Shown here: positions 1 through 14,926 of the stretch, piece after piece
Position numbering within the stretch: the first letter of the stretch is position 1
Layout: each line of letters begins with the position of its first letter
NCBI GenBank assembly: GCA_021801345.1
Contig: JAJYYA010000027.1
Coordinates: forward strand, 1-64,000
DNA from: Nitrospirota bacterium
GTDB taxonomy: Bacteria > Nitrospirota > Leptospirillia > Leptospirillales > Leptospirillaceae
DNA: 64,000 nucleotides
Direction of reading: 5' to 3'
Notes under the pieces: model-generated
What the model saw: the letters and a program-made list of their open reading frames with translations, nothing else
What the model was told of the DNA's origin: nothing
Databases searched by the model: none
Translations under genes and position numbers: made by a program

Positions 1-99
1 AGGCGATATTCGTAAGTTGTTAATAGTAAAAAGAAAATAAATAGGGAAACTCAAAATGCGATTTGCGAAATAAGAGTTATGAACAACGCCTGTTCTCTG

Positions 100-1809
100 T
101 TATGAACAGACCGTGTTCTCTGTTCCCGTGTCTTCGCCAGAGAAGGGGGAAGTGGCCGCTTTCCCCTTCTCACTCTTGCCTTTTTCCTCATTCGTCTCTT
201 TCTTGCCTCCCTCCTTCTTGTTCTTCTTTGTTATGAACGGAGGGGGCTCGACCGCCTCCGCAAAGTACTCCGTCCCCCGAACGTTCTCGTGCGCGACGGG
301 GGACGATCGCGGCTCGACCGAGGCCCCGTTTTCCATGCCGTTCTTCAGGATCCCGAGCACCGTGGCGTATGAGAAGCTCCTGAGCGCAAGCGCCCGTCCG
401 CACGCCGCATTCAGACGGTCCGGATAGCTTTTTCGAAGCGACAGGATCCCCTGACAGCTCCGGTAGGCCAAAGGCGGATATCGCCGGCTCTCAAAAATCT
501 TTTCGAAGAAGGCGACGACGGAGGACCCCACTTCTGCGGCCTGCTTCAGGAACAGCTCCTGGGACTGGTCCAGGTACCCCTTGTGGTGGGGCGGCATGTG
601 GTCCCGGACGGTCTTGAAGCGCTCCCGGGAGTTGGCGTTCCGGGGATGGCTCGCTACCCGCTCCTCCCGGTAGAAGATCTCGACGGTCCGGGCCGTGATC
701 CGCACGTCCACCACCTCCCCCACCAGCCGGTAGGGAACGCTGTAGTAAAAACGCCCCAGATCGATGTGGTAGTCGATGTGAACGGTGCTTTTGACCCAGT
801 CCTGCGTTTCGAAGGGTTCTGCCGGCAAGGGTCCAAGGGCCGGCTGGTCTTCCTCCACAAAGATCGTCCACCGGCTGTCGGTGCGCCCCTGGAAGGGCTT
901 TCGGTTGAAGATCGCGAGCTGATCCAGAAGCGCCGCGTTCAGATCCTCGATCGAGACGAACTTTCGGTGTCGAAGCGGCGCCATCAGAGACCGCTGTGCG
1001 TTCAGAACCCCATTTTCCACGCTCCCCTTGTCCCGCGGCTTTTTACTGCGGGCCGCGTGGACCTCCACGTTGTAGTGACGGCCCATCTCGCGGAAGGCCC
1101 GATGAAGACGGGGCTCCACACGGCATTGGGAGACGATCGCCGTCTTCGGTCGATCGGGGATGACTACCACAGGGACTCCCCCCATGTATTCGAAGGTCTT
1201 CCGGTGGCCCTCGATCCAGGAGGCGCTCTTCATGTCCGGGGTGGCGCAGGCAAAGGTGTAGGACGACCGCCCCATGACCGCCACGAACAGGCTCACCCAT
1301 TGGGGCTTTCCCCCGGGGGGCTCGATCAGGATCTTCGGTCCCGAGTAGTCGACGTAGAGCTCCTGCCCCGGTGCATGGGGGATGTGAAGCCGCAGATCCC
1401 TGTTCTTCAAATGCTCCTTGTAGAGCGCGCAGAACTGGCTGTAGCCCAAGCCCTCCGGGTGGGACTCCCGGTACTCCTTCCAGAGAAGCCACCGGGTCAC
1501 GCCGCTCTTCTTCCGTTGCGTCAGTTCCTTCTCCACCTCATTCCAGTCCGGAATCAGGGCGCCCGACTGCGCCGTCGTCTCCTGGCTCTCCGGATAAAGG
1601 GCGCTCCGCAGCCGCTCCCTGTCCCGGCTCTCCTCCCGAAGCGGCCAATGGCAGATCCCGAGTTCCTTGGCCATGCTCAGATACTTCGCTACCGTCGGAC
1701 GCGAGATCCCGACCGTTCGCGCGATCCTTCGCACCGACTCCTCGCCCTTCCCATACCGCTCTTCCAGAACTTCCAGCACTTTGAACATGGATAGCCTCTC
1801 TTGGACCAT
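100..1809 (-). CDS. istA: IS21-family transposase IstA
   Basis: The 569-residue product is a DDE transposase that joins the ends of the insertion sequence to target DNA, working with the IstB ATPase. The N-terminus holds a helix-turn-helix (about residues 26-46). The integrase core follows, with candidate catalytic D154 (in LYVDYSG), D219 (in VIPDRPKTAI) and E265 (in DKGSVENG). The start is supported by AAAGGAG a few bases upstream. The C-terminus is unusual: about 45 residues after the core are low complexity and rich in Lys, Glu and Gly, and the usual istB overlap is not seen in the 99 bases downstream. The gene reads toward the left window edge. Family assignment is firm; whether the element is still active cannot be told from here. 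Confidence 0.9.
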   Translation of the reverse strand: MVQERLSMFKVLEVLEERYGKGEESVRRIARTVGISRPTVAKYLSMAKELGICHWPLREESRDRERLRSALYPESQETTAQSGALIPDWNEVEKELTQRKKSGVTRWLLWKEYRESHPEGLGYSQFCALYKEHLKNRDLRLHIPHAPGQELYVDYSGPKILIEPPGGKPQWVSLFVAVMGRSSYTFACATPDMKSASWIEGHRKTFEYMGGVPVVVIPDRPKTAIVSQCRVEPRLHRAFREMGRHYNVEVHAARSKKPRDKGSVENGVLNAQRSLMAPLRHRKFVSIEDLNAALLDQLAIFNRKPFQGRTDSRWTIFVEEDQPALGPLPAEPFETQDWVKSTVHIDYHIDLGRFYYSVPYRLVGEVVDVRITARTVEIFYREERVASHPRNANSRERFKTVRDHMPPHHKGYLDQSQELFLKQAAEVGSSVVAFFEKIFESRRYPPLAYRSCQGILSLRKSYPDRLNAACGRALALRSFSYATVLGILKNGMENGASVEPRSSPVAHENVRGTEYFAEAVEPPPFITKKNKKEGGKKETNEEKGKSEKGKAATSPFSGEDTGTENTVCS

Positions 1810-1912
1810 CTCGACTCCTTTCGTATGGTGGATTTGCGACCATAGAACCAGAGTCTGAGTATCCGTGAAATTTTGGATGTTGGGCAGGGGGGTGTTAGAG
1901 AGAGTTCAGGGG

Positions 1913-2005
1913 GTGGCAATCATGCATCGGAATCAGGTGGCAATCATGGATCGGAATAAGTGGCAATCATGCGTCGGAATAAGTGGCAATCATGGACCGG
2001 AATAT
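1913..2005 (-). repeat. Four tandem 23-bp terminal repeats of the IS21 element
   Basis: Four near-identical units start at 1913, 1937, 1960 and 1983. Each contains GTGGCAATCATG followed by a variable dinucleotide and CGGAAT on the plus strand. They lie 104-196 bp upstream of the istA start, at the very end of the element, and fit the multiple terminal transposase-binding sites known for IS21. Four clustered copies at one end is more than the two or three usually described; the other end lies outside the window. Confidence 0.8.
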
Positions 2006-2008
2006 GCA

Positions 2009-3878
2009 GTTCACTATTTCCGAAAAAAAGGCTTCCGTGTTGCCCTCTTCTAAGCCACCTATGCGGTGGTTCACTCCTGTCTGTCTTGACGAAGTTTACG
2101 AACGGACTTCTAAGCCACCTATGCGGTGGTTCACTTCCGGAGGATCTTCTGAGGCCCACGCAAATACTTCTAAGCCACCTATGCGGTGGTTCACTGATCG
2201 ATGCGTCCCTGGAGCCCCATGACGCCCTTCTAAGCCACCTATGCGGTGGTTCACACACACACTGGACCGTGTCCTTCCAGCGGGAAGCTTCTAAGCCACC
2301 TATGCGGTGGTTCACTTCCCGCATCCTGTATGCCCTTCAACGCTCCTGGCTTCTAAGCCACCTATGCGGTGGTTCACGGGTTTGGCTCCCGCTGGATCCA
2401 TGATTCACTCTTCTAAGCCACCTATGCGGTGGTTCACGAAAGACTGGAACCGGATGTTAATCTCGTCCTCTTCTAAGCCACCTATGCGGTGGTTCACGGT
2501 GTCGGGCCGGTCTCTTCCTGTAGTGGGGACTTCTAAGCCACCTATGCGGTGGTTCACCCTCTCCTTTCGTGAGGCGCCCCTTTGCGTCACTTCTAAGCCA
2601 CCTATGCGGTGGTTCACGATAGCGACCTCGCCTCGGGGGGCTCCTCGCTCTTCTAAGCCACCTATGCGGTGGTTCACTTCCGCCTGCATGCCTCTCTTTA
2701 GCACAGAAACTTCTAAGCCACCTATGCGGTGGTTCACAGAGATCCGTCTTTATGCCGTTGCATGTGCAACTTCTAAGCCACCTATGCGGTGGTTCACGGC
2801 CGTCGAACGGGCAGACGGAACCAGGGAATCTTCTAAGCCACCTATGCGGTGGTTCACCAACGGGTTGGATGATGCCCTCTGGTGTCTACCTTCTAAGCCA
2901 CCTATGCGGTGGTTCACGGAAAGACCCACAAGGTCAACCCGATCCTTCTCTTCTAAGCCACCTATGCGGTGGTTCACCTTCCGGGACTGTTCCTCGGCCT
3001 CCTTCCTGACTTCTAAGCCACCTATGCGGTGGTTCACTTACCGGACGAAGCGGCCCTTATCGTTATCCACTTCTAAGCCACCTATGCGGTGGTTCACGTC
3101 GGGATGATGATGTCGAGAGATTCCTTCGACTTCTAAGCCACCTATGCGGTGGTTCACGGCCTGCGCCTGGGCCCGGGCCTCGTCGTTCGGCTTCTAAGCC
3201 ACCTATGCGGTGGTTCACTATCTATTGGCTTATCGCCATGGGGATTCTTTCTTCTAAGCCACCTATGCGGTGGTTCACGGCACGAGTCACGCTGGAACCT
3301 TTCTCGCCCTCTTCTAAGCCACCTATGCGGTGGTTCACCCTCTCCCTCGTAGAATCGACTCATCCTAAGTCTTCTAAGCCACCTATGCGGTGGTTCACAC
3401 AATCACGGTCAAGCTGGACCGGGTTTAATACTTCTAAGCCACCTATGCGGTGGTTCACCTGTTGATGAGGCTTACATGATTCACAATCACCTTCTAAGCC
3501 ACCTATGCGGTGGTTCACTTTTTAACCTAATGAGGGAGGGATCAGACAATCTTCTAAGCCACCTATGCGGTGGTTCACGCATCATCCAACCCATTGCTGT
3601 CCAAGATCGTCTTCTAAGCCACCTATGCGGTGGTTCACGTTATTTGCGAGATTTAAAGACTGGAAAGTATCTTCTAAGCCACCTATGCGGTGGTTCACAT
3701 AAGATGCGCCACGTCCCGAGCGCACGCAACCTTCTAAGCCACCTATGCGGTGGTTCACCAGACGGATGGGAAAAACTTCTGTCCCATCTTCTTCTAAGCC
3801 ACCTATGCGGTGGTTCACTTCTTCCTCGATCTCTCTCTTGATATCGAGAACTTCTAAGCCACCTATGCGGTGGTTCAC
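2009..3878 (-). CRISPR. Type I-F CRISPR array: 31 intact repeats plus a 6-nt repeat remnant
   Basis: Thirty-one identical 28-bp repeats run from 2047-2074 to 3851-3878, mostly with a 60-bp period. Spacers are 32 bp except for two of 33 (starting 2255 and 3158) and one of 34 (starting 2316). On the minus strand the repeat begins GTGAACCACCGCATAGGTGG and ends CTTAGAAG. This gives a CCACC/GGTGG stem with loop GCATA and an 8-nt handle, the same geometry as the Cas6f (Csy4) substrate of known I-F systems. Transcription is therefore on the minus strand from the leader beside cas1, and spacer 3819-3850 is the newest. The distal end is not degenerate: a 32-bp spacer (2015-2046) precedes GTTCAC, the last six bases of a repeat cut by the IS element, giving 31 spacers in all. 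Confidence 0.98.
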
Positions 3879-3985
3879 CGAATAAAGTTCCGCAAAAATA
3901 CTGTTCTTTAAAATACTTGTTTATAAAACCATCCAAGAACCTTCTATTTTCCCTCCTTCCATAAGGTACCGTCGTTATGCGATTC
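3879..3985 (-). promoter_or_regulatory. CRISPR leader
   Basis: This 107-bp AT-rich stretch lies between the cas1 stop and the first repeat, on the transcribed (minus) strand. Leaders of I-F arrays hold the array promoter and the integration signals for new spacers. AT-rich TATAAA and TATTTT stretches are present near 3906-3925, but I cannot single out one promoter with confidence. Confidence 0.7.
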
Positions 3986-4930
3986 TTACGAGATCGTTTT
4001 TTTGATGGTCTCGATAATATCGTCCATAACCATCTTTGACTGGTAATGATCGATCAATTCATCGCGAAACTCCTGATCTCGTTCATTATCTTTGGCTGCC
4101 TGAAATGAAAATGGCAATGTGATGGCATCCTTGTAAAGGTCCGCCACATCGAAAACAAGCGCCCCCCTCCGGGTCTTCCCATGCATGACGGGAAGCGCAA
4201 AGGAAATCCCCAGAACGTTCAGTGCGGATGCGGCATATCCGTAGGCGATATAATTGCCGTGGTCCAGATAGCTGTTCGCAACGTCAATCAAGGTTTCCTT
4301 TTTCCCTTGACCTTCATTTCGCGTGAAGCCGGAGATGTTGAATCCTCTCGCCATCTTTGCGTAAAGGCTTTTGGCCCATTCCGCCTCAACCGACATCAAA
4401 CGTTCAGTATCCGGTGCCGAATGCGCTTTTTTTATTGAGTAATCAATTTCGGGTTCAGAAAGAACAATATCGGCTTTCTTGAGAAAGGGAAGGGCAGACC
4501 AGCTCTCGATTGTCCAACGAAGTCTTTTCTCAAAAAACGTCTTCGCAACGGAAAGTCTGGATTCTTCGTTGATCCACATTTTTATCCATGCCTGCATATA
4601 CTCCGTAGGACGATATTCGGATTGAGGGGAGAGGAAGACGTAATCGATGGAAGAAAAGAGCGGCGAGCCGCCGTTGCCGACAAAACCAAAAACGATGTTG
4701 GATTCCGCAAGTCTTCTGGCCGCCGCATCGGTAATCGAACTTCCTTTCCCGAGAAGGATGAAAACGGTATTGCGTTCCGGAATATTAAAGAATCGCCCGA
4801 TCTCCCCCTCTTCCGTCAGGTAGACAACCCGTTCGTCTTTTACGGACACCTTGACATGATCCAGATAGAACACGTTCGCTCTTTTCGAGAGCAGGATCTG
4901 TCTGGGCTTTGCCTTTTCACCCGCAGACAT
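3986..4930 (-). CDS. cas1: CRISPR integrase Cas1, type I-F
   Basis: The 314-residue protein integrates new spacers at the leader end of the array together with the Cas2 part of Cas2-3. The I-F type is shown by the N-terminal ILLSKRANVFYL block and by LSPQSEYRPTEYMQ (about residues 100-113). Candidate metal-binding residues are E182 (SVEAEWAKSLY), H250 (VMHGKTRRG), D261 and D264 (FDVADLYKD). The start is the ATG at 4930, which overlaps the cas6f stop in an ATGA. A longer in-frame extension to 5083 would overlap cas6f by about 150 bases and has no family similarity. It is the last gene of the operon and lies directly before the leader. In most I-F loci cas1 is instead the first gene, next to cas2-3. 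Confidence 0.95.
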   Translation of the reverse strand: MSAGEKAKPRQILLSKRANVFYLDHVKVSVKDERVVYLTEEGEIGRFFNIPERNTVFILLGKGSSITDAAARRLAESNIVFGFVGNGGSPLFSSIDYVFLSPQSEYRPTEYMQAWIKMWINEESRLSVAKTFFEKRLRWTIESWSALPFLKKADIVLSEPEIDYSIKKAHSAPDTERLMSVEAEWAKSLYAKMARGFNISGFTRNEGQGKKETLIDVANSYLDHGNYIAYGYAASALNVLGISFALPVMHGKTRRGALVFDVADLYKDAITLPFSFQAAKDNERDQEFRDELIDHYQSKMVMDDIIETIKKTIS

Positions 4931-5538
4931 CAGAGACCCATGGGCAATGAGAACGAATGCGTTGTTCCCGAGAGTCCATATCCGTCGGGACAGCAAATAT
5001 CGGTTCGTTCTCCATTTCTCTTGGTAATGTGCAAACTGAATATCGTTCCGGTCGTTTTGCTTCGCAACCGGAAGAAGGGCCATTCGGCGGAAGCATCAAT
5101 CCGTTTCTGTCTAAGATCGATTCCCTGAGAGGATCTCGGAATACGCTCTTTGTGTTCGCCTCTAAATTGCGTAGACTTCCGAGTCGGAATCCGGAATCTC
5201 CGGTATTCGATCCATGGGCCGGAATAGTTCTCGGGAATGAGGAGAGGTTCCCGGAAAAGATGGATTCTGGATCCGATCCTTTCGTGCTTGTCCAATTCTT
5301 CGTAAACGATCTTCCAGTCTTCTTCCGATTCGGCAAAAACTCGGAAAACGTGTCCAGGATGACGGCGTTCCCCTTCCCTCATCAAGGGAAACCCGAGCGC
5401 AAAACGCCCGGGATTGTTTCGGAAGACTCCATGCAGGACGGAAAACAAAAAAGTGGCTACGGGGAGGGTTGGAATACCCCCCTCCCCCACCGTAGCCCCA
5501 TCCCTGATTCTGATGTCCGAATAGATGCGTGGCTTCAT
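4930..5538 (-). CDS. cas6f: CRISPR RNA endonuclease Cas6f (Csy4)
   Basis: The 202-residue protein should cut pre-crRNA after the repeat stem-loop and stay bound to the 3' end of the crRNA in the Csy complex. H36 (LFSVLHGVF) aligns by eye with the catalytic His29 of Pseudomonas Csy4. S160 in LRSKTTG aligns with Ser148. An arginine-rich stretch (about residues 112-146) fits the RNA-binding helix, though it looks shorter than in Pseudomonas. The C-terminal block GYGLSGTTHSF matches the family ending. The ATG overlaps the cas7f stop (ATGA) and the stop overlaps the cas1 start, so translation is coupled. The CCACC-GCATA-GGTGG hairpin of the array is a natural substrate. Confidence 0.93.
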   Translation of the reverse strand: MKPRIYSDIRIRDGATVGEGGIPTLPVATFLFSVLHGVFRNNPGRFALGFPLMREGERRHPGHVFRVFAESEEDWKIVYEELDKHERIGSRIHLFREPLLIPENYSGPWIEYRRFRIPTRKSTQFRGEHKERIPRSSQGIDLRQKRIDASAEWPFFRLRSKTTGTIFSLHITKRNGERTDICCPDGYGLSGTTHSFSLPMGL

Positions 5539-6680
5539 GGCAGTTCCTCCGTCTTTACATCCCCGCTTTCCTTTTTTTCGGATTCCTCGTTCTTCTTGTC
5601 GCTGGTGCCATAAACGCCTCCCCGCTCTATGGCGGCGATCATGTACATCCCTTCTGGAGAGTCCGGATTGATCTGGCTCAGACGAAGAGCCATCTCGAAA
5701 GAGGAATACTTGCCTTTCCGAAAAAAATCCTGTTGCGACAGGCTGGCTCCGAGCGGCTCGATCGGGATGGGGAGTCCGACCTCTTCAAAGTTCGGATACC
5801 ATGTATCGATCGTTCGGATAGCGTTGAAGATTTTCTGGTCCCGAATGGCGGCCCGACCAATAACCCGAATCTCGTCCTCCCCATTCCTTTCCTCATGACC
5901 AAGCGCATAGAGAAATCGCGACGGTCCATTCTTCTTGTCAAACCTTTGTTTCTCCACATAGTTCTGACTGGGAAAGACCTCAATGGATCCAATGATCCCA
6001 AAAGAGACGCTGGCTTCAACCAGCAGCCCCTCCAGGGATTCCCCCTTCATCTGCCTCACGATCTCAGTCGCAACATTGCGTTCATCTTGCGAATACTCAC
6101 CAAAGTTGTTCATGTCGATCTTGAGTCCATCGAAGGAAGCCAATTTGGATTTTGCTCCCTCCCTCCCAAGCCGGAAAACATCAATGGTAATTGATGAGGC
6201 CATTGTCCGGTTCCGCCACAACCACCGCCCATTGGCAATGTTTCTGGCATATCGGCAGGCGACTTCATAGAGCCCCTGGGAGTTCCTCGCTCTCCCGAGA
6301 AAATCCTTGACCATTTCCCGAGCCATTTTCTGATTCTCTTTGTCGCTTGAGGCACAAGAATCAAGCAGATCTTCGATGTCGAGAAACTTGGTTTCAAATC
6401 GGACGAGAAGCCCCATCGCATCTGAGTCCAGCTTGGCCGCATCAATGGTCTGAGGATTCGAGACGTGTCGTTCACCACCTGCTCCTGTCGTTGACGACTT
6501 GATCCAGGGGTTTTCGTTTCCCTTTCCATCGTTCACATTCTGTGTTCCACGAATGCCATGTCTCCGAACAAGAACAGGGGAGGCATCCTTTTCCTCGAAC
6601 AGATTGAACATCTCCGCATCGGAGACAACATGTCCTCGTCTAAACGCCATGACACCGGGAAGCTTCTTGAGTGTTTGCAT
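5535..6680 (-). CDS. cas7f: Csy complex backbone protein Cas7f (Csy3)
   Basis: The product (381 residues) forms the repeated backbone of the I-F surveillance complex along the crRNA. Family motifs are clear: NGRWLWRNR in the middle, EVFPSQ, FNAIRTIDTWYP and AAIERGGVYG near the end. It is about 40 residues longer than Pseudomonas Csy3 (342). The extra length is mainly a Ser/Gly/Asn-rich insert near residues 50-80 and a charged C-terminal tail rich in Glu and Lys. It follows cas5f after a 19-base gap and overlaps cas6f by an ATGA. Confidence 0.95.
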   Translation of the reverse strand: MQTLKKLPGVMAFRRGHVVSDAEMFNLFEEKDASPVLVRRHGIRGTQNVNDGKGNENPWIKSSTTGAGGERHVSNPQTIDAAKLDSDAMGLLVRFETKFLDIEDLLDSCASSDKENQKMAREMVKDFLGRARNSQGLYEVACRYARNIANGRWLWRNRTMASSITIDVFRLGREGAKSKLASFDGLKIDMNNFGEYSQDERNVATEIVRQMKGESLEGLLVEASVSFGIIGSIEVFPSQNYVEKQRFDKKNGPSRFLYALGHEERNGEDEIRVIGRAAIRDQKIFNAIRTIDTWYPNFEEVGLPIPIEPLGASLSQQDFFRKGKYSSFEMALRLSQINPDSPEGMYMIAAIERGGVYGTSDKKNEESEKKESGDVKTEELP

Positions 6681-6699: not shown

Positions 6700-7554
6700 T
6701 TATGGGTGAGCCAATGCTAGGTAAACTCCGGGCATCGGTCGGGACCAGCGCCAAAAATGAAGTCCCGTATCCCTGCCGAGCGTTTTATACTGAACCAGCC
6801 CAACGAGCGGTTCAGCGTAGGCATGTGGCAGATTGCCTCGGACCTGCCTACGATTCTTGCGTTCCGAGATCTCCGCATAGCCAACGGTTGTGGGCATTAG
6901 CCAAGGCTCAGGCGATGAAAACTTCTGAGACTCTTCGCTAACGCTTTTTTTGCCGGAATCATGTTTAAATCTCCGCGTGACGCGAAGCAGAGTATCAAGT
7001 GGGTCCTTGTCGTTCTCGCCTTTTACCATGAGATCTTTTCTGTCGAGGATGGACCAGAGAAGGCGTCGTGTTTGTTTCAGCGCTCTGATGACTTTCTCCG
7101 GGTCACTCTCGTAAGGAAGAAGGACGGGGTCTCCATGTCGGAGGATGTCTCCACCGGCCAGCCTTCGTCCTCGAAGCCATGGAGCGATCGACGCGCTGTC
7201 CAGGGACAAACCCTCGTCGAATCGCAACACAAGAGAGCAATCGAGATGGCATCGAGCCGTCGGTTGAGAAGAAAGAATCGGGGATCCAGGATTGTGGGAG
7301 TTGTAATCCTCTTCGTTAATAAAAGAAGCCGCTTTGAACTGTGCCGGACGGAATGTTCCGGAAACGAACTCCCCCGGAAACTGGGCATCATGGTGAATGA
7401 TAGCAATGCCATTGTGACGGACCCCAAGATGACGTTCCAACGCATGGGCGAACCCCATGTAAGCCGTGATGGGCGGAGGACCAATCATCCACCATGCCGG
7501 CTGCGCGTTCGCGTTTTTGACCTCAAGTCGAGGAATGACGACATAGTGGCTCAC
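6700..7554 (-). CDS. cas5f: Csy complex protein Cas5f (Csy2)
   Basis: The 284-residue protein caps the 5' handle of the crRNA together with Cas8f. It is recognised by the start SHYVVIPRLEVKNANAQ, the GPPPITAYMGFAHALER block and the late block PEPWLMPTTVGYAEIS followed by AEPLVGLVQY, typical of Csy2. I chose the GTG at 7554, which overlaps the cas8f stop as GTGA, rather than the in-frame ATG at 7584 inside cas8f. It is shorter than Pseudomonas Csy2 (327). The neighbours on both sides are Csy complex genes on the same strand. Confidence 0.92.
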   Translation of the reverse strand: MSHYVVIPRLEVKNANAQPAWWMIGPPPITAYMGFAHALERHLGVRHNGIAIIHHDAQFPGEFVSGTFRPAQFKAASFINEEDYNSHNPGSPILSSQPTARCHLDCSLVLRFDEGLSLDSASIAPWLRGRRLAGGDILRHGDPVLLPYESDPEKVIRALKQTRRLLWSILDRKDLMVKGENDKDPLDTLLRVTRRFKHDSGKKSVSEESQKFSSPEPWLMPTTVGYAEISERKNRRQVRGNLPHAYAEPLVGLVQYKTLGRDTGLHFWRWSRPMPGVYLALAHP

Positions 7555-8687
7555 AGCAACCCCTCCTCGATGATTCCGATCCATCGGAGAGCATCGTGTT
7601 CCCCGATGTCGAGACTCCGGATCGTTTTCCCGTAAAAAAACCGTGCATCAAGGATCTTTTTCCAGACTTCTTTCGCCTGGTCCTTCACCCAATCCATTGT
7701 CCGCAGAGAAGGGTCAAGCCATGGATCTGGCTCTTGTTCGCGTTCAGGAAGAGAGTCCTCATGCTTGTCGATCAGGGATGCCGACTCGCTGGCTTTCTTT
7801 TTAATCGCCTCGACAATCCGCAGGAGGAAAACCCTTTCCGTTTCTCGCGTCTCGGCATCCCCGGGCATAATTCCACGGTGAGATGCAAGTATTTGTGAGC
7901 GCCATTCGTATAACTCCCGCAGGATAGGTCTCGGGATGGAACGATCAACGCCCCTGAAATGAATGGCATAAGCCGTGCGCTTCTCGCGATCTTCCGTGGG
8001 AGGGCAGAAAAAGAGAACGGTTTGAGCGGAGGACACATATTGTCCAACGTTCTGCATGTTCGATCCACCTATTCCAAGAAATCCCCTCCATCTGCCTATC
8101 ATTTCAGGGCTATCCGGATCGCCGTGGTCCACAACGTGACGTTCGTTTTTACGGGAGTAATCCAACGCTTCCTTGTCCAATCTCTTTTTAATGATCTCGC
8201 TGAAGCCGGGAGACGGAAGCGGGGTAAGGACAATATCCTCATTATTTTCAGACTGGACAACGATTTGCCTCAGCCTGAGCCCCACAAACTCGCTTTTTGT
8301 CTCATAGCGAGAGTCGAGCGAAGGGAGCGTTGCACGAACAAGATCGAGATCCTGCTCGACAACATTGGTATAAACCTCAGCGTTTCCCTCTCCTCCATTT
8401 TTAACCCAAAGATATTTCTTCATGGATGGGCTATCGCTAGCCCCACCAAGGTAATCGAGAGGGATCTCCCGAATGTCCATTGTCCGCAAGGCCACATAAG
8501 GAAGATCGATCCGATCATCCGATGAAAGCCGGATTCCAAAGGGAGTATTTTTTGTATTCGCGATTTTTGGATTGAAATGGGAAAACTCCTGGATGACCCC
8601 GAGATCCTTTTCCGTAACCCTTTCCCACGGGACTTCCTTTATCTTCTTTTCTTTCGTCTTTGGCCTTCCTTTAATTTTTTGTTCCAT
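7551..8687 (-). CDS. cas8f: Csy complex large subunit Cas8f (Csy1)
   Basis: The first gene of the cas operon encodes the I-F large subunit, which reads the protospacer-adjacent motif and starts DNA unwinding. Supporting signs are the block FLGIGGSNMQNVGQYVSS (about residues 204-221), similar to the FGGSNPQN block of Csy1, and the position directly before cas5f. At 378 residues it is shorter than Pseudomonas Csy1 (434). The N-terminus is very lysine-rich. The start has an AGGAGG ribosome site about 6 bases upstream and a good promoter at 8707-8734. Csy1 proteins diverge strongly, so the call leans partly on gene order. Confidence 0.85.
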   Translation of the reverse strand: MEQKIKGRPKTKEKKIKEVPWERVTEKDLGVIQEFSHFNPKIANTKNTPFGIRLSSDDRIDLPYVALRTMDIREIPLDYLGGASDSPSMKKYLWVKNGGEGNAEVYTNVVEQDLDLVRATLPSLDSRYETKSEFVGLRLRQIVVQSENNEDIVLTPLPSPGFSEIIKKRLDKEALDYSRKNERHVVDHGDPDSPEMIGRWRGFLGIGGSNMQNVGQYVSSAQTVLFFCPPTEDREKRTAYAIHFRGVDRSIPRPILRELYEWRSQILASHRGIMPGDAETRETERVFLLRIVEAIKKKASESASLIDKHEDSLPEREQEPDPWLDPSLRTMDWVKDQAKEVWKKILDARFFYGKTIRSLDIGEHDALRWIGIIEEGLL

Positions 8688-8734: not shown

Positions 8735-8820
8735 AATTTTAATCCTTATTTAAAAATAACTAAAGTTTTAGTTTGCGATATTTACTGTGTTATTGACGAA
8801 AAACTCATTTTAATGTTAAG
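8722..8820. promoter_or_regulatory. Divergent cas regulatory region with candidate operator
   Basis: Two elements stand out in this AT-rich region. One is a perfect palindrome, ACTAAA-GT-TTTAGT, at 8760-8773. The other is a direct repeat, ATTTTAATGT(C/T)AA, at 8722-8734 (on the -35 of the cas8f promoter) and 8809-8820 (just before the WYL gene). WYL repressors of the BrxR/CapW type are known to bind inverted repeats in the promoters of the defence systems they control. The palindrome is the likeliest site for the WYL regulator encoded next door. Binding is inferred, not shown. Confidence 0.5.
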
Positions 8821-8830
8821 GTCGATTCCT

Positions 8831-9661
8831 ATGAAGACGACAGAAAACATCATTCTTGAATTCGTTATAAAAAGAGCCTTTCGCACAGGGTCTGTTATGC
8901 GGACAGACCTCATGCGCGTTTTTGAAATGAAACCGCAGACAGCCACGAACACGCTGGCACGCATTCTCTCATCGCAGGGCAAGCTTATTGAACGGAGGGG
9001 AAAAGCCATCTTCCCGAAACCTGGGGCGAAAGTGCCGGCATTTGCCGGAGAAAAGGCGCTCCTGATGGAGCTTGACGCAGGAGAGAATGACCCGCAAAGA
9101 ACAGGGATTTTTCCGGAAGAACTCCCGGTCCACTATATCTCATGGACAAATTCCGCCCCGCCCTCTCCTGGCATACTGTTCACGATTATCGGAGCCATCC
9201 GGCAAGACGCTCTTCTGCGGATCGTTTATATCGGGATGAAAAAGGGAGAGGTCCCAAAAGAGAGAAGAATCATTCCTCTCGCCCTCGACCGAATAAATGA
9301 TCAGTGGCGCTTGGTGGCACAGGATATTCAGACAACATTTTCAAAGGAGACGAGACGGAAGAAGAACGAAGCCCCTCTGCGGACCTTCGTTCTCAGCCGA
9401 ATTCTCAAGGCGGAATGGGACCGCGGAAGAATGCCGAAAGGGATCCCAAGACTCGGGCACTGGGATGACATCGAAGAACTGCGCGTCACCGTCAACACTT
9501 CATGCAACGAACATCAAAAAGAAGCGGTGGAAAGGGAAATCGGAATTGAGAGGGGAGTGGTTCGGGTTCCGTCCCGGGCCCGATTTGAATTCGAGCGACG
9601 ATTCATGAACACGCCTCCGAGTCCGGGGGCCCTTTGGCCACCAATTACGAAGGAGCCCTGA
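8831..9661 (+). CDS. WYL-domain transcriptional regulator of the CRISPR-Cas locus (BrxR/CapW-like)
   Basis: The 276-residue protein has an N-terminal winged helix-turn-helix (about residues 1-60). A WYL domain follows (about 125-175, with LLRIVYIGMKKG, RRIIPLALDRINDQWRLVAQDI), then a C-terminal extension containing ELRVTVNTSC. This is the layout of BrxR/CapW regulators, dimeric repressors of BREX, CBASS and other defence loci that sense a ligand through WYL. The start at 8831 has AAGG nine bases upstream; an ATG at 8813 lacks a ribosome site. The stop overlaps the cas2-3 start (TGATG), so regulator and nuclease are translated together. Control of both cas operons is inferred from the divergent layout. 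Confidence 0.85.
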   Translation: MKTTENIILEFVIKRAFRTGSVMRTDLMRVFEMKPQTATNTLARILSSQGKLIERRGKAIFPKPGAKVPAFAGEKALLMELDAGENDPQRTGIFPEELPVHYISWTNSAPPSPGILFTIIGAIRQDALLRIVYIGMKKGEVPKERRIIPLALDRINDQWRLVAQDIQTTFSKETRRKKNEAPLRTFVLSRILKAEWDRGRMPKGIPRLGHWDDIEELRVTVNTSCNEHQKEAVEREIGIERGVVRVPSRARFEFERRFMNTPPSPGALWPPITKEP

Positions 9662-12600
9662 TGCATATCGTCCTCGTCTCTCTTTGTGAAAAAAGAGCGT
9701 GGAAAAAAAGTCGGGCTATTCTCGACAGCTATGCCCTCCGAAGCGGTGAGCGCACATGGATGACGCCCATTACGCTGGAAGGGCTTCGGGAATTGAGATC
9801 TGCCCTCCGGAGACAGGCGACACGCCAAACCTCCGTCGCCTGCTTTAGAAATCTTGGAAGATCCAGAATGGCCCTTCTCTGGGTTGTCGGGAATCGAGAC
9901 GGCTTCGGGGAAGATGGCATATCGCCTGTGGCATTCAGGAAGACAAAAGAAAGAAAAGAGTTTCCCTCCTGGGCAAGGATGGCCTCCGTCCTTGCCGGCT
10001 CGGCCGGATTGATGCACGATCTTGGAAAGTTCGGGTGCGTCTTTCAGGAAAAATTGAAAAGTCCGACTCCGAAAGCGGACCCGGTACGTCATGAATGGCT
10101 CTCCCTGATTCTTGTCCGGAACTTTCTAAAAGAAACAAGGATCCCGGAGACGTTCGACGAATGGAAGGCTCTCTGGGAAAAAACCTGGAAAGCCATCGGA
10201 GATGCTCCGGAGGACAAACGATTCAAGGCGCTCGCTCCCTTCGATGGCCCGCTGACAGACCCGGAACACACGCTTTTGTACCTCATCGCAACACATCATC
10301 GTCTTCCTTCCGGGGAAACGGGTGTCATCGATGAAAAGAACCATGTACGTCAGGAAAAGGACGTAGACCTCTCCTCGCCCTATCTCCTAACTCCTTTCTC
10401 TTCCCCGGAAAGGGAGATTTTCGACGAAATCGGAAGTCAGTTGAAGGCAATCCACATATTAAAGCAACAACATGCTCCTCCGGAAGATCCTCTCTACTGG
10501 AAATCCGTTGCCTGGCTTGCCAGGATTTCACTCATTCTATCCGACCACGAGGTTTCGTCTCGTGAACCGGAAGAAAAAGACATGCCCTTTCTTGAAAAGA
10601 ATCTCGTCGCCTATGCCAACACAAAAAAACAGGGAAAAAAACGGGCCTACAATCAGGAACTTAACTGGCATCTTGTGAACGTAGGACAAAAAGCCTCGGA
10701 GATGGTTGGGCGTATCCTATCGCTCGCACCCCCTTCTTTATCCAAAGAAGCGATTGATGAAATTCAAGTTCGAACAACCGACAAGCGTTATGAATGGCAA
10801 AACAGGGCCGCACAGTTCCTTGCCGATTCGTTCCGGAAAAATCCCGGCCCCCATCTCGTATTTAATATGGCCGGAACGGGATCGGGGAAAACGCGAATGA
10901 ACGCCAGAGCGATATGTGCCCTGAACGAAGACTCAGGGCACGTTCGTTTTGCCACGGCTCTCAACCTGAGAACACTGACCTTGCAGACGGGGAACGCTTA
11001 CCGTCGCCAGTTGGGAATCGGGGAAGATGAGATGGCCTGCGTTATCGGAGATTCCCTTATCAAAAAACTCTTTGACATGGCTCAGAACGAAAAGGTCCTA
11101 AGCGAGACGAACGACGACGAGAACGACAGCGAGGAAGATTTTGAAACGGAAACGGAATCGGAATTCGAGTGGTCTGAGTGTCCGGAATGGCTTAATAAAT
11201 TTCTTGCAAGAAAACCCAAGATGTCATCCGTAATAGGTGCGCCGGTCCTCGTTTCGACTGTCGACTTCCTGATTGATGCCGGGGATCCAAGAAAACAGGG
11301 CAATCACGCCTTGGCGTCGCTGCGATTGATGACAAGCGACCTGATTCTGGACGAGATCGACAGCTACGATCCGAAACCCATGATCGCGGTCCTTCGGCTT
11401 GTATGGCTTGTCGGATTATTCGGACGCAATCTTGTGGTCTCTTCGGCGACATTATCGCGTCCCGTTGCGCGCATGATCTGGACAGCCTATTGTTCGGGGA
11501 ACAGGGCGAGGGGACTCATGGACCGCAGAAATCCGTCTTTTCAATCCGTCCTGATCGACGATCAGGTCAGCCCTTCCGGAATCGCTTGCCGGGAGGAAGG
11601 AAAATTCATGGAGCACTATGAGTCTCATCTCTCTTCGATGTTTGGAAAGATTGGGGCATTGCCATATCGGAGAGCTTTTTTGCAGGAGGTCGAGGGAGGA
11701 GACCCTCAAACAAACCAAAAAGAGACAACGGAAGCCGTTTCTCTTCATATTAAAGACGCAATCATGAGCAGTCTTCGCAAATTGCATGAAGATCATCATG
11801 TTGTCGATCCAAAAACAGGAAAGAAGATTTCCTTTGGTCTGGTTCGGATTGCAAACATTCGTCCGACCATCGAGATCGCTTCCCATATTGCGGAAACGAT
11901 GCCGAACTCGGTCAGAGTCGCCTGTTATCATTCGCAACATCCCATGATTGTTCGATGGCATATTGAGAAGCGTCTGGATTTTCTCCTTTCGCGCCAGAGG
12001 GGAGATGGTCATATCTTTTCCGATCCGGAAATTCGACACATTATTGACAGCCTTCCAAAAACAAAAGAAAACTTCGCCTTTGTCGTGGTCGCAACACCCG
12101 TCGAGGAAATTGGACGGGATCACGATTTTGATTGGGCGATTATAGAGCCTTCCAGTACGCAGTCGATCGTTCAGACGGCGGGCCGGGTCAATCGCCACAG
12201 GAGACTTCCACTTCCAATCGATAGTGCTAAGCCAAACGTGTCGATCCTGCAATTCAATGTTAAGGCAATGAATCGGCGGAATGGAGCGGTTTTCAAGAGA
12301 CCCGGTCTTGAAAGGGAGGATTGCCTTTACGAGACGCATGATGTCAAGAAACTTCTGGATTGGGAGTGGTTGAACGAGAATCCGCTTGATGCACGTTTGA
12401 GATTTGATGGCAGACATTGTTTCCCAAAATTCGATGACCAATCTCTGGAAGCGTTGACCAAGGGAAATATCCGGGTCATCACGGAAGGACGGGTTCTGGA
12501 CGATAACGGCAAAGACAAGATGGAGTGGATGTCTTCCGATTATTACAAAAGGACCGCGTTACGGGAGAAAAACGCATCGAATGATGAAACTTTTTTCTAC

Positions 12601-12900
12601 CTCAAGGACCCAGTAAACAGCAATAACACAATCATCCTTTTGGAAAACGAAAACAATGGTATTAATCCCATGAATCCCATGACGAAAATCGACAGAAGTG
12701 TCACAGTTATCAAAGATGAAGTCCGTCCGAGCGCATGGCTCTCGCTCTCAGGGAAGGAAATGATTGAACTCATTGAAAAATATTCGATAAGAAAAGAACG
12801 AGGGCTAGAAGTGCATTTGTCATCCAGAAAAAATGCTGAGATGAAAAATATTGTCAGGGACCTTGATTTTGGGTTTTATTTGGACAGAGAAAGAGATTAG
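9661..12900 (+). CDS. cas3: Cas2-Cas3 fusion helicase-nuclease, type I-F
   Basis: The 1079-residue protein is the I-F hallmark fusion. It works with Cas1 in spacer capture and degrades target DNA after recruitment by the Csy complex. Residues 1-95 are the Cas2-like domain (HIVLVSLCEKRAWKKSRAIL, then SGERTWMTPIT). The HD nuclease begins with GLMHDLGK (H119, D120). The superfamily 2 helicase has Walker A AGTGSGKT near residue 405 and DEID (Walker B) near 564. QTAGRVNRH (about 838-846) fits helicase motif VI. An acidic low-complexity stretch rich in Asp, Glu and Asn lies near residues 480-505. The ATG at 9661 matches the family N-terminus; the in-frame ATG at 9634 would overlap the WYL gene further. 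All key motifs look intact. Confidence 0.95.
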   Translation: MHIVLVSLCEKRAWKKSRAILDSYALRSGERTWMTPITLEGLRELRSALRRQATRQTSVACFRNLGRSRMALLWVVGNRDGFGEDGISPVAFRKTKERKEFPSWARMASVLAGSAGLMHDLGKFGCVFQEKLKSPTPKADPVRHEWLSLILVRNFLKETRIPETFDEWKALWEKTWKAIGDAPEDKRFKALAPFDGPLTDPEHTLLYLIATHHRLPSGETGVIDEKNHVRQEKDVDLSSPYLLTPFSSPEREIFDEIGSQLKAIHILKQQHAPPEDPLYWKSVAWLARISLILSDHEVSSREPEEKDMPFLEKNLVAYANTKKQGKKRAYNQELNWHLVNVGQKASEMVGRILSLAPPSLSKEAIDEIQVRTTDKRYEWQNRAAQFLADSFRKNPGPHLVFNMAGTGSGKTRMNARAICALNEDSGHVRFATALNLRTLTLQTGNAYRRQLGIGEDEMACVIGDSLIKKLFDMAQNEKVLSETNDDENDSEEDFETETESEFEWSECPEWLNKFLARKPKMSSVIGAPVLVSTVDFLIDAGDPRKQGNHALASLRLMTSDLILDEIDSYDPKPMIAVLRLVWLVGLFGRNLVVSSATLSRPVARMIWTAYCSGNRARGLMDRRNPSFQSVLIDDQVSPSGIACREEGKFMEHYESHLSSMFGKIGALPYRRAFLQEVEGGDPQTNQKETTEAVSLHIKDAIMSSLRKLHEDHHVVDPKTGKKISFGLVRIANIRPTIEIASHIAETMPNSVRVACYHSQHPMIVRWHIEKRLDFLLSRQRGDGHIFSDPEIRHIIDSLPKTKENFAFVVVATPVEEIGRDHDFDWAIIEPSSTQSIVQTAGRVNRHRRLPLPIDSAKPNVSILQFNVKAMNRRNGAVFKRPGLEREDCLYETHDVKKLLDWEWLNENPLDARLRFDGRHCFPKFDDQSLEALTKGNIRVITEGRVLDDNGKDKMEWMSSDYYKRTALREKNASNDETFFYLKDPVNSNNTIILLENENNGINPMNPMTKIDRSVTVIKDEVRPSAWLSLSGKEMIELIEKYSIRKERGLEVHLSSRKNAEMKNIVRDLDFGFYLDRERD

Positions 12901-13265
12901 CTCAAGGCCTCCAGGGAGATGGAGATTCTGGAATATCTTCAGACAGAACGGGGTTATTGACGGGAAAGTGTGAGCAAAAGAACACCTGCACAGAAGCCCC
13001 CACAACATCCTCACCTGCTCGCTGGCCGCCAGAGCGTTGGCGATCCGGCATGTTACCGCGAACAAGGATGCCAGCGCGCCCTGGGTGGTCGTGTACAACT
13101 GTCCACCGCAAAGCAGAAGTAAAGGCCCTGAAAAGTTGTCGTAACGCAGAACATATCATGCCCTGCCTCGGGTTCCGCCCGCATCGATTACGGGCGACGC
13201 GGTCAGACAGATTTTAAGCTTCCGATGACTTACGGCAATAGACAGTTCTCGTCCCCCCGCCCGAA
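12901..13265. other. Intergenic stretch without recognisable gene
   Basis: These 365 bases lie between the cas2-3 stop and the nifA stop (convergent). Short open frames exist on both strands (for example 12957-13217), but none has a ribosome site, a recognisable motif or a codon pattern like its neighbours. I see no repeat, terminator hairpin with T-tract or integrase site. It marks the right border of the CRISPR island. Confidence 0.5.
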
Positions 13266-14876
13266 TCACTCCTCAGGCAGGTCGTCGGGGATCCCGTACT
13301 TGATCATGCGGTAGCGAAGCTGCCGCGGCGTGACCCCAAGAGCCCGGGCCGCCCGGGTCTTCACGTATCCGTAGCGCTTCAGGACAGACTCGATCTGTTC
13401 CCTCTCAAGGGAGCTGACCGCCCCGAGGAGCCCTTTGCTCCGAACCTCCGGCTCCTCCCCGCGGATCGCGGCCTCCCGCCGAGAAATCCCTTCCGGAGCC
13501 ACCGGGGAGATCTCGACTTTGGCTGGACGGGGGTAGAGGGTCATCGCCCTCCGGACATCCTCCTCCGAGATCCGGTCTTCCCGGGCCATCACCACAAGCC
13601 TCTCCACCATATTTTCAAGCTCCCGGACATTGCCTGTCCATTCGTAATCGATCAGGAGATCAAGGACTCCCGAACCGAGTGCGACACTCCGTCCGTTATC
13701 CCGATTGAATCTCTCCAAAAAATGCTCGAGAAGCAGCGGAATGTCCTCCCGCCTCTCCCGAAGGGGAGGAAGGACCAGAGGCACGACATTCAGACGGTAG
13801 TAGAGGTCCTCCCGGAAAAGGTTCCGTCGGATCATCTCCTCGAGGTTTTTGTTCGTGGCGGCAATGATCCGCACGTCGACGGGAATGACCCGCTGGCCTC
13901 CAAGCCGCTCCACGGAGCGCTCCTGAAGAACACGCAGGAGCTTCACCTGCACAGCCGGAGAGATCTCTCCGATCTCGTCGAGAAAGATTGTCCCGCCGTC
14001 GGCCGCCTCGAACTTGCCCGGACGGGAGATATGGGCTCCTGTAAAGGCCCCCTTCTCGTGGCCAAAAAGCTGACTCTCGAGAAGGGTCTCGGGGATCGCG
14101 GCACAGTTGATCTGCACGAAGGGGTTCTTGGCCCGGGGGCTCATAAAGTGGAGGGCCTTGGCGATCACCTCCTTGCCGGTCCCGCTTTCGCCGAGGATCA
14201 GGACGGTCGCCCGGCTACCGGCCACCTGGTGGACGCTCTCCGCGATCTGGTGCATGACCTTGGAGCGCCCGATCCACCCTTCAATCGCATATCGATCCTT
14301 CAGCGCATGCTCGAGGCGTGTGGCCTCCTCAAGAAGCTTCCGGTTTTCCAGGGAGAGGCGCTGGCGAAGAAGCACCGCCTGGGCAATGGTCGACCCGATG
14401 ATCGAGAGCACCCGTGTGTCCTCTTCGAGATCACGCTCGTTCCGGGACATGTCGCAGTCGGCCGAGAGAACGCCCAGCTTCTTCCCCTGAAAGATCAGAG
14501 GAACGGCGATAAAGGCCGTCTTCGTCCGCCCCTTCCCTCTTCGGCTCCCGGTGCGATTCAGAAAGCGGGGTTCGGCATCGATGTCGGGGACGACGATGGG
14601 CTCTCCGGTCGAAAGCACCGTTCCGCTGATCCCCTCCCCCGCCTTGAACCGCCCTTTCCTCTTCTCCTCCTCCGACATCCCGAAGGCGAGCTCCGTCATG
14701 AGCTCGTCGGTCTGCGCATCGAGCAGGAGGATGGCTCCCCGGTGGAGATCGAGCTGGGAGTCCATGATCCCCAGAATGTGCGCCAGGGCGCTGTCGAGGT
14801 CCGGAGAGCTCGCAAGCTCTCGGCTTATCTCAAAGAAAGCCGTCAGCTCCCGAATGATTTTTTGCTCGTGATTCAT
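13266..14876 (-). CDS. nifA: NifA-like sigma54-dependent activator
   Basis: The 536-residue enhancer-binding protein contacts sigma54 RNA polymerase and drives open complex formation. Domains in order are GAF sensor (about 20-165), AAA+ core (about 195-425) and a Fis-type helix-turn-helix at the end ([18 protein letters not shown]). The AAA+ core has Walker A GESGTGKE (229-236), the sigma54 contact loop GAFTGA (276-281) and the DE of Walker B in [10 protein letters not shown]. The GAF-AAA-Fis order and the place beside glnA favour NifA over NtrC, which has a receiver domain. The cysteine linker of oxygen-sensitive NifA proteins is not seen. I chose ATG 14876 because GGGGGAT precedes it. No nif structural gene is in the window. 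Confidence 0.8.
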
Positions 14877-14887
14877 CGATCCCCCGC

Positions 14888-14926
14888 ACAAAAAAAGGGC
14901 CTGAACAAATTTCTTTGTCCAGGCCC
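14888..14926 (-). terminator. Rho-independent terminator after glnA
   Basis: On the minus strand GGGCCTG (14926-14920) pairs with CAGGCCC (14903-14897), with further pairing of ACAAA/TTTGT inside. A run of seven T then follows. It lies 80 bp after the glnA stop and ends only about 12 bp before the nifA start. nifA must therefore be expressed by read-through or from a promoter overlapping this hairpin. Confidence 0.9.

Follow-up and report, generated by a model that had tools for sequence, protein, structure and literature searches.

Two cut halves of a chromosomal type I-F CRISPR array around an IS21-family element in a Leptospirillaceae bacterium

Introduction

The CRISPR array of this Nitrospirota bacterium stops abruptly next to the end of an insertion sequence, and its repeats remain identical up to the point where they stop. 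The question thus raised by the locus is whether the array really ends there or has been cut by the element. The window, i.e., the whole 64,000-nucleotide stretch analysed here, corresponds to positions 1-64000 of contig C50 (85,520 bases), and its left edge is an assembly break. A previous reading, made from the sequence alone, had proposed that the array ran on leftward and that its older part lies outside the window; this older part was found on another contig of the same genome, C18. An IS21-family insertion that split one chromosomal type I-F array, later received nested inserts and cut off the older spacers from the leader, very probably accounts for the whole arrangement.

The cut repeat in the window

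The array half located in the window comprises the following features:

2015-2046, minus strand: spacer adjoining the cut repeat, 32 bp, the same length as 27 of the 30 other window spacers
2047-3878, minus strand: leader-proximal half of the type I-F array, with 31 identical 28-bp repeats and 30 spacers

The hexanucleotide GTTCAC at positions 2009-2014 (minus strand) corresponds to the final six bases of the 28-bp repeat CTTCTAAGCCACCTATGCGGTGGTTCAC, cut by the IS21 element, whose right end GGAATATGCA finishes at position 2008 and directly abuts it (window GGAATATGCA/GTTCAC). The 32-base spacer 2015-2046 comes next, directly followed by an intact 28-bp repeat at 2047-2074. The coordinates of GTTCAC, of the spacer and of the intact repeat had been given by the sequence-only reading and proved correct on re-reading, together with the location of the outer IS21 end directly before GTTCAC and the identity of the repeats up to the cut (31/31 intact repeats in 2047-3878). 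Since GTTCAC is rare elsewhere in the window (11 occurrences in the remaining 62.1 kb, approximately 1.8e-4 per position) and stands exactly one spacer length from a repeat and beside an IS end, a chance match is very unlikely; it was ruled out once the other half of the repeat had been located on C18.

The older half of the array

Searching the own genome for copies of the repeat, with up to three mismatches allowed, yielded 31 matches on C50 and 30 on C18, the latter consisting of 29 exact matches and one match with two mismatches at C18:35848-35875. This last match contains the first 25 of the 28 repeat bases (C18:35848-35872), and the cut repeat, which ends at C18:35872, is directly followed by the left IS21 end (...CTTCTAAGCCACCTATGCGGTGGTT/TGCGTATTCC). 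The remnant thus finishes with GGTGGTT, next to TGCGTATTCCG, the partner of the IS end found in the window. The last C18 spacer begins with TTTTTAAGTCTGCC, and the pieces from C18 and from the window share the same orientation. The sequence-only reading had expected, to the left, the other IS end, the first part of the same repeat and more 60-bp units, and had held that a lack of repeats past this end would speak against the insertion; all three are present on C18, repeats included.

The lack of distal decay at position 2047, which had been noticed earlier, is accounted for by three decayed repeats, one truncated and two missing one or more bases, that lie next to aspS, at the left extremity of the C18 array, and correspond to the usual leader-distal decay. 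Decay is confined to this aspS end. The C18 half contributes 3 decayed and 29 intact repeats and the window 31 intact ones; with the 1 cut repeat, this amounts to approximately 64 repeats and 63 spacers, provided that no units were lost at insertion; as all repeats are identical, whole repeat-spacer units lost during or after the insertion would leave no trace. The IS21 element separates approximately 32 older spacers on C18 from approximately 31 newer ones in the window. The strain devoid of the IS and carrying an uninterrupted array, which the earlier reading suggested looking for, was not found among the 14 genomes of the genus searched, none of which carries this array, and the exact repeat has no match in genome_contigs, a collection that may lack records of the own genome and of very near ones.

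The IS21-family element and its nested inserts

The part of the element that occurs in the window consists of the following features:

1-74, strand not assigned: one end, probably, of an IS1634-type element (element X) that lies nested between the KfrA_N-like ORF and istA
75-2008, minus strand: right part of the IS21-family element, istA and the right terminal region, ending with GGAATATGCA; aligns to positions 1616-3540 of the C51 sister
100-1809, minus strand: istA, intact IS21-family transposase of 569 aa (NCBIfam NF033546 transpos_IS21, 233.9 bits, cut-off 160; Pfam PF22483)
1914-2008, strand not assigned: short terminal repeats arrayed at the right end (GTGGCAATCATGNNTCGGAAT and variants), read from the sequence, last base A2008

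The inverted partner of the right end extends from C18:35873 onwards (C18:35877-35972, 86% identity, minus strand), and istB, downstream of istA, is located on C18 as well (NF038214, 227.9 bits, above the cut-off of 200). Both the transposase IstA and its helper ATPase IstB are therefore present, and the ends are of the 5'-TG...CA-3' type with several short terminal repeats, TGCGTATTCC and GGAATATGCA being inverted with respect to each other, as found in the IS21 family. A complete sister element of 3544 bp occurs on contig C51 and shares 66-68% identity with the two IS pieces: the C18 piece covers positions 7-134 and 135-1619 of the sister, the window piece positions 1616-3540, and no gap is left between them. 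For neither half does the genome contain another near-identical copy. The element, of approximately 3.6 kb minus its own inserts, contains istA, a KfrA_N-like ORF and istB.

The KfrA_N-domain ORF is located between istA and istB on C18 (L036:17684-18322), and the same ORF was recognised on C51 by reading its sequence. Relatives of the element were collected by six-frame genome searches, whereas a search of genome_contigs found no IstA relatives. In another genome, three IS21-like istA copies follow each other with an exact period of 4470 bases (L117, G250:C1:2103900-2118400), which looks like a tandem amplification.

The element has itself been the target of further insertions. The contig break falls between istA and the KfrA_N-like ORF, where the C51 sister has no insert. 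Positions 1-74 of the window end with ...GATTTGCGAAATAAG, an imperfect inverted repeat of the end of contig C18, CTTACTTTTCGCAAATC; the two ends of element X differ by small indels. Three further copies of the terminal 103 bases of C18 were identified in the genome by DNA search, on contigs C57, C12 and C4, and the C12 copy comes after a fragment of an IS1634-family transposase whose match lies below the curated cut-off of the model. As window positions 1-74 have no second copy in the assembly, their assignment to element X is presumptive. What interrupts the assembly is a nested repeat, probably an element of IS1634 type.

The second insert, on C18, is a minus-strand group II intron that Rfam recognises at L036:16032-16799 (RF02012 with 103.8 bits, RF00029 with 54.1 bits, both above the gathering scores). 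Its limits, deduced from the comparison with C51, delineate 826 bp (L036:16032-16857) with GTGCG...TAC extremities, which correspond to the GUGYG...AY ends of such introns. The insertion point, AAAGGAGAG/TCTATG, is located two codons before the istB stop and is intron-free in C51. No reverse transcriptase frame occurs within the 826-bp intron, and stretches related to it are found elsewhere in the own genome and in three congeners.

A single locus between aspS and a sigma-54-type activator

Contigs C18 and C50 are not joined in the assembly, and the link between them passes through an unassembled element. The two arrays might accordingly be separate loci, each beside its own IS21 copy and only seemingly joined, a reading to which the physical separation of the contigs lends some weight but which is most improbable: the IS pieces complement each other and add up to a full element, the two parts of the cut repeat complement each other as well, the C18 array possesses no cas genes and, towards the IS, no leader of its own, and the flanks of C18 and C50 adjoin in congeners. 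The C18 array starts approximately 20 bases past the aspS stop codon, and the opposite border is located in the window:

13266-14891, minus strand: sigma-54-type activator, named from its sequence, right border of the CRISPR-Cas island; beside aspS in congeners

In 10/10 congeners that carry both genes on one contig, aspS and the activator are convergent neighbours whose ends lie 10-20 bp apart; in an eleventh one, G013, a draft of 350 contigs, their matches fall on separate contigs. This synteny and the completeness of the IS indicate that both array halves and the CRISPR-Cas island occupy one site between aspS and the activator, and two separate loci were rejected on these grounds. What the congeners display is the aspS-activator site without the island, not the array without the IS.

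The CRISPR-Cas island extends from C18:33921 to window position 13246, between the convergent aspS and activator genes, at a site which is empty in the congeners.

Junctions and target duplication

The sequence-only reading had considered a target duplication of 4-8 bp such as GTTCAC. This part did not hold, since the two junctions share only the three bases GTT, less than the 4-8 bp of an IS21 duplication. Six related IS21 elements for which both ends are available exhibit duplications of 5-6 bp (CCCGT, GGGCCA, CCTCC, AGAGAG, GAAAC and GTAAGG); the element on contig C111 of G009 (IstA 68% identical) has a 6-bp duplication, and the first five sequences belong to more distant relatives. An end scan of the C51 sister revealed no duplication, in a contig that may be a collapsed repeat. 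In numerous members of the IS21 family, the target duplication measures 5 bp (PMC11208146).

As the relatives duplicate 5-6 bp and 3 bp are shared here, one of the two junctions may have changed. The 3-bp overlap may stem from the loss of three bases on one side, from an atypical event or from a double insertion with subsequent recombination; slippage, for example, could have removed GGT or TGG from GTGGTTCAC at the right junction. In the double-insertion scenario, IS21 would have entered two different repeats at sites 3 bp apart, and a recombination between the copies that deleted the units in between would leave junctions derived from different events. The 6-bp flanks then expected, GTGGTT at the left junction and GTTCAC at the right one, are each plausible when taken singly, and the scenario would fit the difference between the 3 bp shared here and the 5-6 bp of the related elements. 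Such a scenario is unlikely, as it requires two near-identical landing places plus a deletion, while a small deletion in one copy of the duplicate, or a short duplication from the outset, takes only one event. A single insertion is thus the preferred reading. The element belongs to IS21 by its genes and its ends; the short duplication concerns a single event and could have changed later.

The type I-F genes and the direction of the array

The island contains the following genes to the right of the array:

3879-3985, minus strand: presumed leader between the array and cas1, from its position only
3986-5083, minus strand: cas1f (TIGR03637, 375 bits, cut-off 150)
4930-5538, minus strand: cas6f/csy4 (PF09618, 42.9 bits, cut-off 25; PADLOC Cas6f and type IV Cas6 models)
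5535-6680, minus strand: csy3/cas7f (TIGR02566, 230.6 bits, cut-off 157.6)
6700-7584, minus strand: csy2/cas5f (PF09614, 105.4 bits, cut-off 25; TIGR02565 below its cut-off)
7551-8687, minus strand: divergent csy1/cas8f (PADLOC Cas8f only, E 1.5e-15; no Pfam or NCBIfam match)
8813-9661, plus strand: WYL-domain regulator (PF13280)
9634-12900, plus strand: cas2-3f (TIGR02562, 781.9 bits, cut-off 566)

The full type I-F gene set was found (cas1f, fused cas2-3f, csy1, csy2, csy3 and cas6f), csy1 and cas6f by weaker models only, and all the cas reading frames are open. The array has the 28-bp repeats with a 5-bp hairpin and the 32-bp spacers of type I-F. An I-F3 CRISPR-associated transposon (tnsA/B/C, tniQ and a cascade devoid of Cas1 and Cas3) was considered and rejected: cas1f and cas2-3f stand beside the array, the transposase is an IstA, and none of the scanned ORFs was recognised as tns or tniQ.

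On the minus strand the repeat reads GTGAACCACCGCATAGGTGGCTTAGAAG, the established direction of type I-F repeats. This direction and the decayed repeats at the opposite, aspS end on C18 point to a leader located between cas1 and the array and to a transcription running from right to left. A scan of 3879-3985 found no sigma-70-like promoter, a result that says little. Folding places a hairpin in the repeat, and this hairpin is retained in the C18 remnant.

Proposed course of events and possible effects

The IS21 element would have transposed into one repeat of a type I-F array of approximately 64 repeats, the cut being located between base 25 and base 22 of 28. Later on, the IS21 would have received an IS1634-type element in the interval from istA to the KfrA_N-like ORF, as well as the 826-bp group II intron at the istB end. 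The 31 newer spacers, still joined to the leader, are predicted to continue acquiring, whereas the 32 older spacers on C18 are likely to be severed from the leader promoter and to have lost their leader-driven transcription. In the crRNA direction, spacer 2015-2046 would lack the downstream repeat hairpin and give rise to a crRNA devoid of its usual 3' end. Since istA and istB are co-oriented with the array and the C18 remnant keeps both the hairpin and the 8-base handle, transcripts that read out of the IS along istA and istB could still give rise to processed crRNAs of the older spacers.

Another idea is that the insertion was adaptive, selected either for silencing the older spacers or for driving them from an IS promoter. 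The common direction of istA, istB and the array, as well as the hairpin and handle retained in the C18 remnant, would agree with it, but a neutral insertion suffices for all the observations and selection appears quite unlikely. A highly speculative reading would have this IS21 lineage prefer the unpaired base of the I-F repeat and strike the array more than once; the copies would then have recombined with loss of part of the memory, what remains of the older half now being transcribed from the IS. If all this were true, the IS would be a second leader.

Spacers on both sides of the element

Four exact scans of viral_contigs for spacer targets gave no match; one of them concerned spacer 2015-2046, and another covered two near-identical spacers. 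The phage and plasmid matches of the spacers are marginal and several of them overlap repeats, so that no targets were assigned. Window spacer W13 (2798-2829 region) and C18 spacer C26 (L035 approximately 10698-10729) differ by 2/32 bases, at crRNA positions 3 and 18, and have no target in viral_contigs; W13, the newer of the two, may have been acquired anew from the same viral site once its seed had mutated. Two successive identical spacers (AGCCCCATCTGTGTGAGCTCGAGCGTCTTGAT) occur on C18 (L035:9438-9529), which indicates the duplication of one repeat-spacer unit.

Comparison with known systems

The 28-bp repeats, 32-bp spacers, cas1f, cas2-3f, csy1-3 and cas6f are shared with other type I-F CRISPR-Cas systems, from which the present locus differs by its divergent Cas8f and by a WYL regulator gene located between the divergent cas blocks. 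Similarly, the element shares istA and istB, the TG...CA ends and several short terminal repeats with the IS21 family, as described for the model IS21/IS5376 (PMC11208146), and differs from this model by the extra KfrA_N-like ORF that it shares with the C51 sister between istA and istB, and from numerous members of the family by junctions that share 3 bp instead of 5 bp (PMC11208146).

Where an array seems to end in a draft genome, it may in fact be broken by an IS; in the present case, another contig carried the true boundary at aspS, the decayed end and half of the spacers. The locus offers a natural case for asking whether spacers severed from their leader are still expressed; the general knowledge of CRISPR or of IS21 is left unchanged by it.

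An IS21-family (ISRso19-like) element was already described in Xanthomonas citri pv. citri (PMC6889575): located in a CRISPR repeat between two spacers, it similarly splits the array and broke draft assemblies. PCR and related strains devoid of the IS backed that case, and the text consulted gives no length for the target duplication at the repeat insertion. The same paper cites insertions of IS6110, either in a repeat or in a spacer, at the direct-repeat (CRISPR) locus of Mycobacterium tuberculosis; they also place an IS in a CRISPR array but differ in IS family and CRISPR type. With respect to the X. citri case, the present one concerns an unrelated host, a type I-F system, a longer array and an IS carrying two further inserts. 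The insertion of an IS21 element in a CRISPR repeat is thus already known, and the present locus is a further example, with another host, another CRISPR type and nested inserts.
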